From: Chloroflexota bacterium
GTDB lineage: Bacteria > Chloroflexota > Dehalococcoidia > SHYB01
DNA: 44,125 nt
Direction of reading: 5' to 3'
Assembly: GCA_016875535.1 (NCBI GenBank)
Contig: VGPF01000017.1
Coordinates: 1 to 44,125 of the forward strand
Positions 27,470 through 33,885 of this stretch are shown piece by piece. A program made the translations under genes and the position numbers. The notes under the pieces were generated by a model, which did not search any database, was not told where the DNA came from, and was given only the letters and a program-made list of their open reading frames with translations. Position 1 is the first letter of the stretch, and the number at the start of each line of letters is the position of its first letter.

Positions 27470-28078
27470 ATGACCGACGCAAAACTCTTCGATGTCCTCT
27501 ACAGCCAGCGTGCCGTTCGCAAGTACAAGCGCGACCCGGTGCCTAAGCACCTCATCCATAAAGTCATAGAAGCGGCAACCAAGGCCCCCAGCGCCGTCAA
27601 TATGCAGCCCTGGCGCTTCGTCGTTGTCACTGAGCCTGCCAAGGTCCGCTGGGTCGCCGAGCTCTATAGCCGCACCTGGCGCGAGAACAACGCCAACCCT
27701 TCGGCCAAGACCTATCTGGCCGATAAGGATCAGAAGGTCCTCCAGCACGCCCACGAATTCGGCATGGGCGGCATCTTCGAGGTCCCCTGTTTCATCTTCG
27801 TCTGCAGCACCCAGCCCAGCGCCGAGATTTCCATCCTCCAGGCGAGTCAGAACCTCATGCTCGCCGCCCGGGGCCTTGGCCTCGGCACCATCTTCACCAC
27901 GCTGCTCGCGCGCTATTGGGGCGATGTGAAAAAGTACCTCGGCATCCCGGAAAACGTCCACATCGTCTGCATGATTCCCCTGGGCTATCCTTCATCCCCG
28001 GCGGCCTTCGGCCCTACGCGCCGCCTTCCCGTGGAAGAGGTCGCCTTCCAGGATGCCTGGGGAACGAAATTCTTGTAG
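27470..28078 (+). CDS. Nitroreductase-family flavoprotein
   Basis: A 202-residue nitroreductase-fold protein that would bind FMN and act as a dimer. The FMN phosphate-binding start SQRAVRKYKRDPVP, the APSAVNMQPWRFVVV loop and the C-terminal GLGLGTIFTTL and IPLGYPS segments are all in place. Substrates in this family range from nitroaromatics to enones and quinones, and cannot be told here. The ATG at 27470 has AGGGAG 8 bases upstream; the open frame extends to 27359 but without similarity. Its 3' end is 13 bases from the next gene on the same strand. Confidence 0.85.
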   Translation: MTDAKLFDVLYSQRAVRKYKRDPVPKHLIHKVIEAATKAPSAVNMQPWRFVVVTEPAKVRWVAELYSRTWRENNANPSAKTYLADKDQKVLQHAHEFGMGGIFEVPCFIFVCSTQPSAEISILQASQNLMLAARGLGLGTIFTTLLARYWGDVKKYLGIPENVHIVCMIPLGYPSSPAAFGPTRRLPVEEVAFQDAWGTKFL

Positions 28079-28091
28079 AGGAGTTGCTTCT

Positions 28092-28835
28092 ATGCCTCGC
28101 AGCAATACGATCCCAGAATATCGACTGCGCGGGAGTCTCCTGCGGTGCTTGAAACTGACCGGACGTTCTCGTGAGCGGGTTGCCAGAGCCCTTTCTGCGC
28201 TTGCCGAGCCGAGCATAGCTGTTATCACACCTGAGGACTTTTGGATGCCTCAAGGGTTGGATATGCCAGAGGAGGCCAAGCTCGGCCAACATGAGCCTTT
28301 TCTCACATCTGAGACCAGAGAGAGCCTAACCCAATGGTGGCTAGAAGTCCCAAGAAATGCAAATACACCAAACTGGGACATCGCATCTACATGCAGAGTA
28401 AGTGGCCGCAAGGGCCTTCTGCTTATTGAGGCTAAAGCGCACAGCAACGAACTTTCATCTCTAGGGAAAAGCAGTCCTAGATCGAGAAACGGCTGGAAAA
28501 ATCATGAGAAGGTTGCAACGGCTATCAGTGAAGCAAACGATGCCTTGAACCGAATCGCGCCAGGTTGGTCTCTTTCGCGCGACTCACATTATCAACTAAG
28601 CAACCGTTTCGCCTGGGCGTGGAAACTCACCTCTCTGAAAGTACCTGTTGTGCTGGTTTATCTCGGTTTCCTAGACGCAAATGAAATGGACGACCAAGGG
28701 CAACCTTTCGCAAGTCCATCAGCCTGGGAAAATTGCATACGAGCTCATGCACACGGTGTCGTACCAGACAGTGTCTGCGGCAATATGTTAGATATCGCTG
28801 GCACTCCGTTCTGGCCCTTGATTCGTACGGCATAA
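28092..28835 (+). CDS. Orphan protein with PD-(D/E)XK nuclease-like pattern
   Basis: A 247-residue protein that I cannot assign to a named family. The middle reads WDIAST, a short basic turn, then GLLLIEAKAHSNEL: Asp96, 16 residues, Glu113-x-Lys115. This is the arrangement of PD-(D/E)XK nuclease cores (acid at the end of one strand, E-x-K in the next). The N-terminus is basic and helical and could touch nucleic acid. Base composition is clearly more AT-rich than its neighbours, suggesting transfer. It follows the nitroreductase by 13 bases with GAGGAG before the ATG, but no methylase or other defence partner is adjacent. Confidence 0.55.
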   Translation: MPRSNTIPEYRLRGSLLRCLKLTGRSRERVARALSALAEPSIAVITPEDFWMPQGLDMPEEAKLGQHEPFLTSETRESLTQWWLEVPRNANTPNWDIASTCRVSGRKGLLLIEAKAHSNELSSLGKSSPRSRNGWKNHEKVATAISEANDALNRIAPGWSLSRDSHYQLSNRFAWAWKLTSLKVPVVLVYLGFLDANEMDDQGQPFASPSAWENCIRAHAHGVVPDSVCGNMLDIAGTPFWPLIRTA

Positions 28836-28952: not shown

Positions 28953-30506
28953 TTAGACTTCAAAAAGCGCAGGCTGCTTCTGCTTCAGCGCTGAGACCGT
29001 CCTCCGTGGCGTGATCGCCAGCGCCGCCGAATCGTCGTCCTTCTCCTGCTTGGATGGCTTGCGTGCCTCATCCATCAGCTTCAGGTAATCGCCCACCTGG
29101 TCCGTCATCGCGATGTGTCCCCGCTCACGCAGCCTGCCGAACAGGTCCATCTCCCACTCGATGCCCACCGTCGGGTGCGGCATGAACGATTTGATGGACT
29201 GATAGCCCATGATGGAGAGCGAGCCGGGCCCCTTGGTGCGCAGCGGCTGCAGCCAGGAGAGCATGATGTCCCGCCCTGTCAGCCCATTGCGGAAGGCCTC
29301 TGCCGCCAACTCTTTGCGCTCGGAGTCGGAAAGATCGAAGAACGTCGGGTCCAGCTGGTCCTTCAGCATTTTCCCGATGGCGTCGGCCGAAGGTCGCGAG
29401 ACGAAGAAGATGTTGTCCCCGGCGCGCGAGATGAACGCTTCGTCTATCCGCAGGGGGTCGTTCGTCGTCCCAACGATGATGACCGTGGAGACGCCGCCCG
29501 CATCCATCACCTTCTTGCGCAGCGCCAGCATCTCCTCCCGCGTCTCCTTCGTCCACATATCCTCCGGGAACTGGATATCGCCCTTGCTGTCCTTCTTCCC
29601 CAGTTTCCGCACTTCCTCGGAGAGCTTCTGCCGCAGCTTCACCACGTCCGGGTCGTTCCACAGCGCCTTGATGCGCAGCTCTGTCTCCAGCTCCTGCACG
29701 CCCTGCACGTCCTGGATGAGCGAGTTCACGATGTCGCGGTACTCTTCGTGCGTGTTCTTATCTGCCCGGTTGGAGACCAGCGAGTCAATCTCGTCCAGCA
29801 CCAGCAGCACCGTGGAGCCGCGGTTGCACTCGGAACGCGCCGCATCGAGGATCTGTTGCGCGTTCCGGGCGGACATGCCCAGGTACGGGTCTTTGATCTC
29901 CGTCGCCTTGATGATCTTCAGCTTCACGTCCAGCTGGGAACCGTCGCTCGTCGGCAGGGCCAGCTTAGAGGCCATCGCCTTCGCCAGCATCGTCTTGCCG
30001 CAGCCGTACGGACCGAAGAGCATAAAGACCCGCGGCGGCATGCTCTTCCTGATAAGGAACCACTCGGGGTGCGTCAGATAATAGAGCGATTGGTCAATCC
30101 GGGCCTTCACATTGCCCAGCCCGGCGATCGCTTCAAAGTCGGATGGGGCAACCGTATCCCACTTGATCTGCACAGGCCCTTGCGTCGCCGTGGCCACATT
30201 GGACTGCGCGCGCTGGTTGCCCTGCGCGCTGGGGCCGGGAGCGGGCGGCGGTGGCGGCGTCAGGTCCGTCGGCTGCACGCTCACACGCTCGCCTTCCTTC
30301 AACGTCATCGCCAGGCGGCGGGGGAGCTTCACCTGGCTGGCGGGCAGCTTGGGATCGGTGATGAACGGCGTGACAAAGAATGTAGATGAGCCGGTGACGG
30401 TCAGAGAATCTTTCGCAGCAGCGCCCAGCTCTTCCATCGTGGCCGGGCTGATAACGGCCGCCTCCCCTTGGACCTTCTCTGCGACGACAAGATAGCGTGT
30501 TGCCAT
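28953..30506 (-). CDS. Cdc48-like AAA ATPase with single ATPase domain
   Basis: A 517-residue AAA protein. Residues 1-80 resemble a Cdc48/VAT-type double-psi-barrel N domain (AAVISPATMEELGAAAKDSLTVTG, then LPRRLAMTLKEGERVSV). A Pro-rich linker follows (84-93). The AAA domain has Walker A GPYGCGKT at 165-172, Walker B LLVLDEID at 234-241, sensor TTN at 347-349 and a likely arginine finger Arg361. Between Walker B and the sensor there are about 100 residues instead of the usual 45 or so, giving a charged helical insertion. It probably remodels proteins as a hexamer. The ATG at 30506 is chosen over upstream codons that lie within a GC hairpin. Last gene of a three-gene operon with two unknown proteins. 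Confidence 0.8.
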   Translation of the reverse strand: MATRYLVVAEKVQGEAAVISPATMEELGAAAKDSLTVTGSSTFFVTPFITDPKLPASQVKLPRRLAMTLKEGERVSVQPTDLTPPPPPAPGPSAQGNQRAQSNVATATQGPVQIKWDTVAPSDFEAIAGLGNVKARIDQSLYYLTHPEWFLIRKSMPPRVFMLFGPYGCGKTMLAKAMASKLALPTSDGSQLDVKLKIIKATEIKDPYLGMSARNAQQILDAARSECNRGSTVLLVLDEIDSLVSNRADKNTHEEYRDIVNSLIQDVQGVQELETELRIKALWNDPDVVKLRQKLSEEVRKLGKKDSKGDIQFPEDMWTKETREEMLALRKKVMDAGGVSTVIIVGTTNDPLRIDEAFISRAGDNIFFVSRPSADAIGKMLKDQLDPTFFDLSDSERKELAAEAFRNGLTGRDIMLSWLQPLRTKGPGSLSIMGYQSIKSFMPHPTVGIEWEMDLFGRLRERGHIAMTDQVGDYLKLMDEARKPSKQEKDDDSAALAITPRRTVSALKQKQPALFEV

Positions 30507-30532
30507 AGGTGCCCACCGGCATATTCGGTACG

Positions 30533-30561
30533 CCCGCCCCCTCCGCAAGGGAGGGGGCGGG
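30533..30561. repeat. Strong GC hairpin inside the AAA operon
   Basis: Perfect 12-base arms (CCCGCCCCCTCC and GGAGGGGGCGGG) around a 5-base loop, in the 94-base gap between the unknown gene at 30601 and the AAA gene. No U-run follows in the direction of transcription, so it is more likely an RNA stability or processing element, or a dispersed REP-like repeat, than a terminator. Confidence 0.65.
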
Positions 30562-30600
30562 GACCGGAGTGTGTTCGAAACTGCGGACGAGTGCGAGCTA

Positions 30601-31101
30601 CTACTGGTTGAACATGTTGTCCAGGCGGTCGTCATCGAGCCCGCCGTCAACATGCATGTGCTCTTCTTCGTCCTCTGCCTCGCGGCGCTTGATCATGTCA
30701 ACCAGCGGATCGCCGGAGGCCTGCTCGTCCAGGCGCAGGACCTTGCTCAGCTTGCCGAGCTTCCAGGATTGGCCGCTCAGTTCAAGCTCAAGGATGTTGA
30801 AGTCCACCGTGTCCTTGGCCACTTCGAGCTTCGCCAGCTCGTTCTCCACGATCTCCTGCTGCTTGCGGAGCCAGTCCGTGCCCAGGCGGCTCAGAAGCTG
30901 CTCGCGCAGGATGACCTTGCGGGCGCGGACGCGCGCCGCCGCCTTCAGCTCTTCCTGGAGGGAATGGAGCTGCTTCGCGTCCAGCTTCTGGAGATACAGC
31001 TTGAACTGCTGGACCTCGGCGTTCTGAACTTCACCAGGAGCAACCTCCTGGATCATCTGGTCAATGGCGGCTGGGGTGAGGGTTTGCGCTACGGTCGCCA
31101 T
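30601..31101 (-). CDS. Unrecognised coiled-coil protein with acidic tail (AAA operon)
   Basis: A 166-residue, almost entirely helical protein that I do not recognise. Residues about 25-110 are rich in Lys, Glu, Leu and Gln with heptad-like spacing and should form a coiled coil or helical hairpin. The last 30 residues are strongly acidic (EAEDEEEH, then GLDDDRLDNMF), a kind of tail that can recruit an AAA partner. No Cys, no signal peptide, no catalytic motif. The ribosome site GGGAGGA lies inside the end of the upstream gene, whose stop is 3 bases before this ATG. Function unknown; physical link with the AAA ATPase is inferred from the operon. Confidence 0.6.
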   Translation of the reverse strand: MATVAQTLTPAAIDQMIQEVAPGEVQNAEVQQFKLYLQKLDAKQLHSLQEELKAAARVRARKVILREQLLSRLGTDWLRKQQEIVENELAKLEVAKDTVDFNILELELSGQSWKLGKLSKVLRLDEQASGDPLVDMIKRREAEDEEEHMHVDGGLDDDRLDNMFNQ

Positions 31102-31104
31102 GGC

Positions 31105-32097
31105 CTATTTCCTCCCGTTGTTGATGTGATTGATGACCGCGGCGACGATCTTGGACTTGCTCCAGATCACGCGGCCTTCCTCTTTGAGCGTCTCGCACTC
31201 ATTGAGGATCTTCGCTTCGCGAGAGTTGTACCGGTCAAGAAGGTCCTTCACCGTCTTCAGGCGCTCCTTGAGGGCGTTCTCGCTCTGCTCCATCTTCTGC
31301 TTGTTCGTCCGCTCGCGGCTCACCAGGGCGTCAATGGATCCCTGGGTGGGAGGCCCGAACATCACATGATCCTCGGAAATCTCCACATTCAGATCGAACC
31401 GCTTCTTCGCCTCGCGAAGGATCGTCTTCATGTCCTCGCGATTGTCCACGCCCATCTGCTCGCCCAGTCGGTCCATAGAGATCGGCTGGCCGGCTGCATG
31501 GATCAGGAACTCGGCGTCGAAGAACCGCTCCTTCAAGATCTCGTAGTTCACGAGATAGCTGCCAACCTCAACAGCGAATACCGGATCAATCAGATTGTGG
31601 CCGCTGGACACCTGCGCCAGAAACTCCCGCTTCACCACGCCGTCCAGGGCTTGCATCAGATCAAGATAGGTAAAGCCGATCAGCCTCAGCAGATCGCCGT
31701 CCGTGACCACCTTCCCGCCCACATCATGGACCACACCCTCGGTCATCCAGTAGCTCTTGATGGCGTCCAGGACATAGACCGACCGCACATTGAACGCCGT
31801 CTCGAGATCCCTCCGGAATGCCGTGTAGTCGCGAGGTCGGATATACCGCAGAAGAAATCCGAACTTCGACCGATCTAGCGTATCCTTCGGATTGAAGGCT
31901 TTGGGATCAAAAGCCACCAAATTCTCCGCATGGACACATGCCAGACGCCGCTTCATCGCCCACTCACGGAATACCTTTTCTGTCTGAGCGGGCTTTGTAC
32001 GGTCCGGCGTCACCTCACAAAAACCGTACATTTGAATCATGCGTTCCCAGTCGCCTCTCCGCTCACTGGAAACTGGCCACGCGCTAATCAGAGCCAT
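31105..32097 (-). CDS. Unrecognised 330-residue protein, first gene of the AAA operon
   Basis: I do not recognise this protein. Residues about 1-60 carry WERMIQMYGF, the middle is helical, and residues about 205-250 (AGQPISMDRLGEQMGVDNREDMKTIL, then NVEISEDHVMF) look like a winged helix: three helices followed by a beta hairpin. The C-terminal 80 residues form a charged coiled coil ending in a basic helix. The ATG at 32097 is fixed by AAAGGAGG 6 bases upstream; a longer frame to 32160 adds residues from the leader only. It could be a DNA-, RNA- or adaptor-binding subunit working with the AAA ATPase. Codon use is less GC-biased than the neighbours. Confidence 0.6.
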   Translation of the reverse strand: MALISAWPVSSERRGDWERMIQMYGFCEVTPDRTKPAQTEKVFREWAMKRRLACVHAENLVAFDPKAFNPKDTLDRSKFGFLLRYIRPRDYTAFRRDLETAFNVRSVYVLDAIKSYWMTEGVVHDVGGKVVTDGDLLRLIGFTYLDLMQALDGVVKREFLAQVSSGHNLIDPVFAVEVGSYLVNYEILKERFFDAEFLIHAAGQPISMDRLGEQMGVDNREDMKTILREAKKRFDLNVEISEDHVMFGPPTQGSIDALVSRERTNKQKMEQSENALKERLKTVKDLLDRYNSREAKILNECETLKEEGRVIWSKSKIVAAVINHINNGRK

Positions 32098-32313
32098 TAG
32101 CTGCCTCCTTTCATTATTGTATTTTTTGCTGCTGGCTCTTGCAAAGGGTTTTAACCCCATTTAGAATCTTGTTCAGTACCACATACAATATAATCCGCCT
32201 CACGTAAGAGGGTTGTCAATACATTTTTGGACGAGTTTTGAACCAAGTTTAAAATTGACGGTTGCATTCATTACGTAAATCCCGTCGCCTCTTTCTATAT
32301 AAGGAAGCCAACA
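32098..32313. promoter_or_regulatory. AT-rich divergent control region of the AAA operon and HEAT gene
   Basis: A 216-base AT-rich gap between two divergent start codons in otherwise GC-rich DNA. On the minus strand TTGACA (32219-32214) faces TATATT (32192-32187), but the 21-base spacing is long. On the plus strand TATATAA (32296-32302) lies just before AAGGAAG and the ATG at 32314. ACGTAA occurs twice (32202-32207 and 32272-32277 region). Exact promoters cannot be fixed. Confidence 0.4.
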
Positions 32314-33885
32314 ATGGTCAGCCTCCCGTCTAAGAAATTCCTCGGGCCATTGACCGAGCGCGAGCTCGAGTACAGCTTCAAACAGCTCATCGGTAAATCG
32401 TGGCGATACCAGGACGCTAAGCCCTTCGCCCAGCGCGTCAAACACAACCCTGCCGTCGCCGCTCCCTACCTCATCGCCCAGCTCTCCCAGGGCGAGCGTG
32501 AGCGCGAAGTCGCCTCCTCCCTCCTCCTCCTCCTCAAGGGCCCGCGCGTCGTCGCCCCGCTCTACACGCTCCTGCGCGACCCAGAGAAAAACGATGTCGT
32601 GCGCGCCACCGCCGCCTCGCTCCTCTGCGCCCTCGGCGAAAACGTCACCTCCTCAGGCGCCGTCCGCGCCCTCCACGATCCCGCTGCCCTGGCCGATCAC
32701 GCGCTCCAGGTCATTCTCGAAAAGATCACCGACGACGAAGCCTTCCGGGAGCAGTTCCTCGATAACCTGGAGAGCGACGACGATGCCAGCCGCGCCGATG
32801 TCATCGCCTCCCTGGCCGAATCCAGGGACCATCGCGCCATGCATCTCCTCCTCCCCCTGCTCGATAGCTCGCGCCCCGCCACCGTCTCCCTCGTAATCTC
32901 CTCTCTGGATCGCCTGGAAAACAGCGCCGCCCTCGCGCCGCTCAAGGGGCTGGCGGAGAGCGGCCCGCGATCGCGCATCCGCCAGGAAGCCCGCGCCGCC
33001 TATGGCCGCCTCATGATGCGCTCCAGCGCCCACATGAAGCCGACCCTCTACCGCCCAGGGGCCAGCGCCTCCCTGCCGGTCCATCGTGCTTGCGTGACGC
33101 TCCTTGATCAGCACGGCGACCAGGCCATCGTCGTCGCCCGTGCCCGTGCCGATGGCTTCCTGAAAGTCCTCACCATCCATACGAGCGATCTCTCAGGGGT
33201 AAAGGACTGCTACGGTGTGGACATGATGCGCCCCCAGGAGCTCGATGAGATGCTCGCCGCCCTCAATCGCCAGGGCCTCTGCCCGGTGGAGGTGGGCCTT
33301 GTTGCATGCCGCGAGGTCATCTACGCCGCCCGCGAGCTGAACCTCTCCCTGGGGAAACGTCCGCCGATGCAGCTCGCCATCTGGCGCGACCTGCTGGAGA
33401 GCGAAGGGGCGCAGAATCTCGATGATGCACCCACATTGCGCCAGCTTCCCCTCTGGAATCACGATGAAGCCGACTTGCTGAGCGCCCTCCCCAAGACCGG
33501 CGCGCTCCTCGCCGCTCCTGAGTTCCGTCAGTGGTTCTTCGATGTCCAGCTCGTCTGGCCCTATGTTGATGAATGGAGCGCCGCATCTATCGAAGAGCGC
33601 TCCGGCGACCAAGGGAAAGCGACCCTCGATGCCCTTGTCACCCTTGCCGCGCGCGATCTCCTCAAGCCCGCCATGCGCAAGCTTCTCTGGCAGCGCCTCA
33701 CCAGGCAAGCGGAGCTCTTGGGGCGCCTCGGCAAGGCCGATCTCTCGCTCCTCACCGCCGCCGCCTCACACGGCCTCCACCCCGAGCACGGCATCCCCGC
33801 CGAGCACCATCCCTTCGTCCGCGCCATGGCCCTCGGCAGCTTCATGAATGCCGGCCTGCGGGTGGAGATGCGGAGCTCTGCTTGA
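32314..33885 (+). CDS. HEAT-repeat protein
   Basis: A 523-residue soluble protein. Residues about 35-235 are made of HEAT-type helical pairs, for example EREVASSLLLLLKGPRVVAPLYTLLRD, VVRATAASLLCALGE, ASRADVIASLAESRDHRAMHLLLPLLD and ARAAYGRLMM. Residues about 250-350 appear alpha-beta (CVTLLDQHGDQAIVVARAR, LKVLTIHTSDLSGVKDCYGVDMM), and the rest is helical. HEAT proteins are usually scaffolds. It is divergent from the AAA operon and shares its control region, so a functional link is possible but unproven. The ATG is placed by AAGGAAG just upstream. Confidence 0.7.
   Translation: MVSLPSKKFLGPLTERELEYSFKQLIGKSWRYQDAKPFAQRVKHNPAVAAPYLIAQLSQGEREREVASSLLLLLKGPRVVAPLYTLLRDPEKNDVVRATAASLLCALGENVTSSGAVRALHDPAALADHALQVILEKITDDEAFREQFLDNLESDDDASRADVIASLAESRDHRAMHLLLPLLDSSRPATVSLVISSLDRLENSAALAPLKGLAESGPRSRIRQEARAAYGRLMMRSSAHMKPTLYRPGASASLPVHRACVTLLDQHGDQAIVVARARADGFLKVLTIHTSDLSGVKDCYGVDMMRPQELDEMLAALNRQGLCPVEVGLVACREVIYAARELNLSLGKRPPMQLAIWRDLLESEGAQNLDDAPTLRQLPLWNHDEADLLSALPKTGALLAAPEFRQWFFDVQLVWPYVDEWSAASIEERSGDQGKATLDALVTLAARDLLKPAMRKLLWQRLTRQAELLGRLGKADLSLLTAAASHGLHPEHGIPAEHHPFVRAMALGSFMNAGLRVEMRSSA

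Follow-up and report, generated by a model that had tools for sequence, protein, structure and literature searches.

A conserved three-gene operon of one Chloroflexota family encoding a single-ring AAA ATPase and two orphan partners: a candidate remodelling machine

The window analysed here is a stretch of 44,125 nucleotides from a Chloroflexota bacterium (contig VGPF01000017.1, assembly GCA_016875535.1). It carries three co-directional genes on the minus strand, running from 32097 down to 28953, and next to them a divergent gene for a HEAT-repeat protein.

31105 to 32097, minus strand: gene 1, 330 aa, three to four predicted tandem winged-helix modules plus a 76-residue C-terminal helix
30601 to 31101, minus strand: gene 2, 166 aa, predicted to be helical with a long central helix, and an acidic C-terminal part with a conserved end motif
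28953 to 30506, minus strand: gene 3, 517 aa, single-ring AAA ATPase
32314 to 33885, plus strand: HEAT-repeat protein, 523 aa, divergent from the trio and adjoining it in all three genera

Gene 1 is preceded by the ribosome-binding site AAAGGAGG and is separated from gene 2 by 3 bases; a further 94 bases separate gene 2 from gene 3. The reading frames, their starts and the 3-base gap agree with the original prediction made from this DNA. An in-frame ATG of gene 3 is also found upstream, at 30653, and the start at 30506 was preferred because it agrees with the relatives.

The trio is present in identical order in three genera of one family, represented by the window and by the genomes G002 and G003, among four family genomes; it was not found in the fourth, which is a 70%-complete draft. 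Across genera the protein identity is 65–72% for genes 1 and 2, which are therefore real genes, 55–60% for the ATPase and 47–50% for the HEAT-repeat protein. The higher conservation of the two partners compared to the ATPase is as expected if genes 1 and 2 constitute a working assembly. The block is flanked by carboxylase genes in the window and in G003 and by an ABC transporter and a HerA-type ATPase in G002, so that the conserved block itself comprises the HEAT gene plus the trio. The HEAT gene, which did not figure in the original prediction, is probably co-regulated with the trio, and it may possibly belong to the same system; its relatives elsewhere in the class (nearest E=1.6e-73) occur without the trio and in unrelated surroundings. 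The C-terminal region of the HEAT-repeat protein is conserved, with the sequence PVHRACVTLLDQ... GVKxCxGVDMM. At 28053–28835 (plus strand), downstream of a nitroreductase gene, there is a 260-aa open reading frame that has no Pfam match.

New in this analysis is a strong hairpin in the 94-base gap ahead of gene 3. This element and the control region of gene 1 are located as follows:

30533 to 30561, minus strand: hairpin between gene 2 and gene 3, with a perfect GC-rich stem of 12 bp and a 5-nt loop
32190 to 32219, minus strand: sigma-70-like promoter of gene 1, TTGACA-18-GATTAT
32234 to 32249, minus strand: conserved 16-bp block AACTTGGTTCAAAACT upstream of the promoter, read by eye

Each of the three genera has a long GC-rich RNA hairpin at this position; the perfect stems measure 12, 18 and 13 bp, the shuffle z-scores are -2.7, -5.1 and -4.4, and perfect stems of at least 12 bp are rare in these contigs (about 1 per 10 kb). 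The hairpin sequences are completely different from genus to genus and none of the three is followed by a T run. The arms cannot be aligned between genera, so that RNAalifold yields no consensus for the region, and the hairpins were assessed sequence by sequence. The element is likely a partial terminator or an mRNA-stability element that lowers ATPase output relative to that of genes 1 and 2; its presence before the ATPase gene in three genera suggests that the cell makes more of the partners than of the ATPase, a dosage bias that would fit a catalytic remodeller acting on abundant subunits. In the promoter of gene 1 the TTGACA element is conserved in the three genera. The block AACTTGGTTCAAAACT, near-identical in the three genera, is possibly an operator; it was rejected as a LexA box, since neither spacing nor half-sites fit.

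Profiles built from gene 1 retrieved nothing convincing elsewhere in 400 genomes of the phylum and 393 of the class, the three marginal matches in the phylum (E 0.001–0.003, 17–19 bits) being confined to short stretches. In 148 class genomes the AAA profile added no member to the family at E 1e-20; at E 1e-14 its only matches in 400 phylum genomes were one FtsH-like protein and one TPR-AAA protein, both of which were set aside. In these searches the AAA gene is therefore never seen without genes 1 and 2. The gene-order survey proposed along with the original prediction thus came out in its favour, with the trio complete in each genome in which any one of its genes occurs and no AAA gene standing alone.

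At the thresholds used, the viral, phage and plasmid collections contained no relative of the trio. A match to the viral contig L023 was set aside as an unrelated P-loop protein, and a Methylocella tundrae plasmid (L032, NZ_LR536451.1) carries an AAA gene of the Cdc48 family immediately downstream of a cluster of gas-vesicle genes. Absence from the phage and plasmid collections speaks against an anti-phage or stress operon built around an AAA protein of the IetA/TRIP13 kind, which we consider very improbable. PADLOC does match the ATPase weakly with IetA (E=4e-18) and TRIP13 (E=6e-15), but only within the ATPase core; there is neither an effector domain nor a HORMA, CD-NTase or protease partner, and the vertical conservation in three genera beside metabolic neighbours also argues against such a role.

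The AAA domain of gene 3 is certain (PF00004, E=2.5e-22), and it is the only ATPase domain, as had been predicted: a second tandem domain was not found, nor did a Pfam scan detect an MIT domain. Walker A (GPYGCGKT), Walker B (LLVLDEID), the sensor-1 residue N349 and a YLG pore loop are intact. In the second region of homology (SRH) there is one arginine-finger position, R361, and the second (RPGR) arginine is missing. Aligned to VPS4B, p97 D2 and ARC, the protein has the features of a classical AAA ATPase, namely Walker A and B, sensor 1, the SRH and a lid motif of the GxSGADI type. Two further regions of the protein are considered below.

29493 to 29690, minus strand: insert of gene 3, residues 273–338, 66 residues between the Walker B helix and sensor 1
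30267 to 30506, minus strand: Cdc48/VAT-like N domain of gene 3, residues 1–80, weakly supported

The insert before sensor 1, put at roughly 60 residues in the original prediction, is exactly 66 residues long in each of the three genera. The Cdc48/VAT-like N domain, also claimed there, is weakly detectable: a match to Pfam CDC48_N exists, but at E=0.03 it falls under the cut-off. A three-sequence profile of the domain run against 177,635 PDB sequences gave Cdc48 as its top match at only E=0.61, and hhalign against p97 N produced a collinear alignment of 75 columns with a probability of 1.4%, compared to 0.1% for the reversed control.

CdvC, the archaeal Vps4, ranks first among the NCBIfam models for two of the AAA proteins and second for the third, with 70 bits for the window protein, 84 for G002 and 70 for G003, which is 14–23 bits over the CDC48 model (56, 61 and 52 bits, respectively); for the window protein the best model is pup_AAA. 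In a control, a Chloroflexota TPR-AAA protein, CdvC scored 52 bits lower than CDC48 (162 against 214). A tree of AAA domains, computed with the 66-residue insert excised, places the gene 3 family on a separate long branch and not with Vps4. Grouping with Vps4/katanin was neither recovered nor rejected (p-AU 0.24), grouping with ARC was not rejected (p-AU 0.44) and grouping with Cdc48 D2 was marginally rejected (p-AU 0.037). The reference sequences for these comparisons and those below were ESCRT-III, E. coli PspA, VPS4B, katanin, p97, PAN and ARC; CHMP1B, VPS4B and ARC were compared with PDB chains and agreed closely.

Gene 3 resembles Cdc48/p97/VAT in its classical AAA core and its weakly supported Cdc48_N-like domain and differs from them in having one ATPase ring instead of two, in the insert before sensor 1 and in the missing second RPGR arginine. 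With ARC/Mpa the gene 3 family shares an insertion after Walker A, and this, together with the rank of pup_AAA and the tolerated ARC grouping, would suit a role in protein quality control, in which an ARC/Mpa- or Cdc48-like unfoldase receives substrates from genes 1 and 2 as adaptors and hands them over to a protease or to refolding. We regard this as unlikely. No 20S proteasome genes were found in the five genomes searched, the genome of the window included, which counts against a degradation role with the proteasome; no OB domains were found in gene 3, and its C-terminus lacks the HbYX tail. Adaptors tied to a single ATPase and made upstream of the hairpin are also a poorer fit.

For neither gene 1 nor gene 2 was a usable family found in Pfam, NCBIfam, PADLOC or PHROGs, and so no clear match assigns either of the proteins that the original prediction had left unrecognised to a known family. 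Gene 1 matches DUF4358 (E=4e-6), mostly over its coiled-coil end, and the match drops to E=6e-4 in one relative; it looks compositional and was rejected. The AlphaFold2 model of gene 1, calculated from three sequences (pLDDT 71, pTM 0.48), has winged-helix-like modules at about residues 10–63, 73–132, 134–183 and 185–247 followed by a single C-terminal helix at 252–328. The possible winged helix of the original prediction is therefore retained as a predicted feature, with the count raised from one to three or four. The best folds found by Foldseek in the PDB were the tandem winged helices of UFL1/DDRGK1 and SelB (E=2.7e-4 and 4.6e-4), which gene 1 resembles in its predicted string of winged helices, despite 10–14% identity and a low global TM-score. 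Further matches included PCI-type subunits of the proteasome lid and COP9 as well as MarR-type and Z-alpha domains; there was no significant match to a viral fold.

Winged helices often bind DNA, so the target of the module could be something other than a membrane. The main rival to the reading we prefer is a nucleoprotein remodeller, possible but doubtful in our estimate, in which gene 1 would bind DNA or RNA, gene 2 would bridge and the AAA protein would strip or reload the complex, in chromosome organisation, replication or mobile-element control. That winged helices are mostly nucleic-acid binders, that the matches include MarR-type and Z-alpha domains as well as SelB, whose tandem winged helices bind RNA, and that a long helix follows the winged helices of gene 1 are all compatible with it. 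The best folds, on the other hand, are the protein-binding winged helices of UFL1/DDRGK1, PCI-type winged helices dominate the matches, and the modules are modest in net charge, with two of the four acidic.

The model of gene 2 is helical and of low confidence (pLDDT 61, pTM 0.27), and this poor model gave no fold match. The very acidic tail seen earlier holds up, with a net charge of -9 over the last 37 residues. Behind a variable acidic stretch, the C-terminus carries the motif DDDR(L/M)D(N/T)(M/L)F, which appears as DDDRLDNMF, DDDRMDTLF and DDDRLDTMF in the three genera. By hhalign, genes 1 and 2 reached a probability of at most 2% against ESCRT-III and PspA, compared to 46–57% in global mode and 13% in local mode for ESCRT-III against PspA, a positive control in which the alignments were similarly shallow.

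According to sequence surveys, ESCRT with a Vps4-type ATPase is archaeal and eukaryotic (PMC10936438, PMC11237479), and bacteria have only PspA/Vipp1 plus a few transferred Vps4-like genes without Snf7 (PMC10936438, PMC11237479). Haloarchaeal Halo_adaptin loci encode, in this order, a winged-helix/coiled-coil protein, an ESCRT-III-like protein and a Vps4-like ATPase with VAT_N and without MIT; this type of set has been proposed as the ancestral ESCRT, in a survey that finds ESCRT in archaea and not in bacteria (PMC10936438). The trio resembles Halo_adaptin in gene order, with winged helix plus coiled coil first (arCOG11741 in the archaeal loci), a helical protein second and AAA third, in the single AAA domain with a Cdc48-type N domain (weakly supported in gene 3) and no MIT, and in a host that divides with FtsZ. 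The likeness is one of layout as described in PMC10936438, gene 2 lacking profile similarity to ESCRT-III. The trio differs in being bacterial, in the 66-residue AAA insert and in the HEAT gene alongside. No adaptin-like IG, beta-propeller or CetZ gene is present among the neighbours examined, which are the HEAT gene and metabolic genes. AAA matches on haloarchaeal plasmids turned out to be Cdc48-type or conjugation-cluster ATPases and not Halo_adaptin. The genome has two FtsZ/tubulin genes (G000:C49 and G000:C2), as does each of three family relatives.

With ESCRT-III/Vps4 (Cdv) in general, the trio shares a single-ring classical AAA protein with an aromatic-x-Gly pore loop, a partner with an acidic C-terminus, and CdvC among the two best NCBIfam models; it differs in having no MIT domain match and no profile match to Snf7 or PspA. 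A true but highly diverged bacterial ESCRT would mean that gene 3 is orthologous to the Halo_adaptin-type Vps4/VAT_N ATPases, that gene 2 is a modified ESCRT-III and that gene 1 is the ESCRT-II-like winged-helix protein. Gene order, domain layout and the CdvC ranking are in its favour, and the acidic C-terminal motif of gene 2 looks, by eye, like MIT-interacting motifs. Against it stand the negative hhalign result alongside a working control, the AAA tree, which neither recovers nor rejects a Vps4/katanin grouping, and the lack of a Snf7 match in the genome; we judge it quite unlikely. Since the profile comparison of genes 1 and 2 is negative despite the control, the trio can be said to work like ESCRT, not to be ESCRT.

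The reading we favour, with a probability of about 0.42, is that the trio may be an AAA module dedicated to remodelling a two-protein assembly, in the manner of a VAT_N-type ESCRT/Vps4 system. The earlier suggestion, in which genes 1 and 2 serve the ATPase as adaptors or substrates or form a polymer that it remodels, is supported in part and stays an inference as to these roles. Gene 1 and gene 2 would form an assembly, probably oligomeric, which a gene 3 hexamer would recognise by means of its N domain, of the conserved acidic motif at the C-terminus of gene 2, or of both. Subunits would be pulled through the pore by the YLG loop, so that the assembly is dismantled or turned over and its subunits are recycled, with the gap hairpin setting partner output above that of the ATPase. 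In this scheme the gene set with its order and conservation, the AAA motifs, the insert and the hairpin are established, the tandem winged helices and the helical nature of gene 2 are predicted, and the complex, its polymeric nature, the direction of action and a membrane target are inferred. The missing profile similarity to Snf7 and PspA, the separate long branch of the AAA protein and the poor model of gene 2 count against an ESCRT-like module.

The trio makes a good candidate for a bacterial remodelling machine not yet described. The layout of the predicted ancestral set, that is, a single AAA protein with a Cdc48-type N domain, a winged-helix protein and a polymer protein, is the layout found in this bacterium. 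The trio could, by descent or by convergence, be a bacterial counterpart of the minimal ESCRT postulated as ancestral in archaea, in a Chloroflexota family with FtsZ and no detectable PspA in the genome, an idea that we hold to be rather improbable. Even if the likeness is convergent, the family has an AAA subfamily with two orphan partners of its own, a set small enough for reconstitution, and the trio offers a test of how general the design is in which an AAA protein dismantles a helical assembly.
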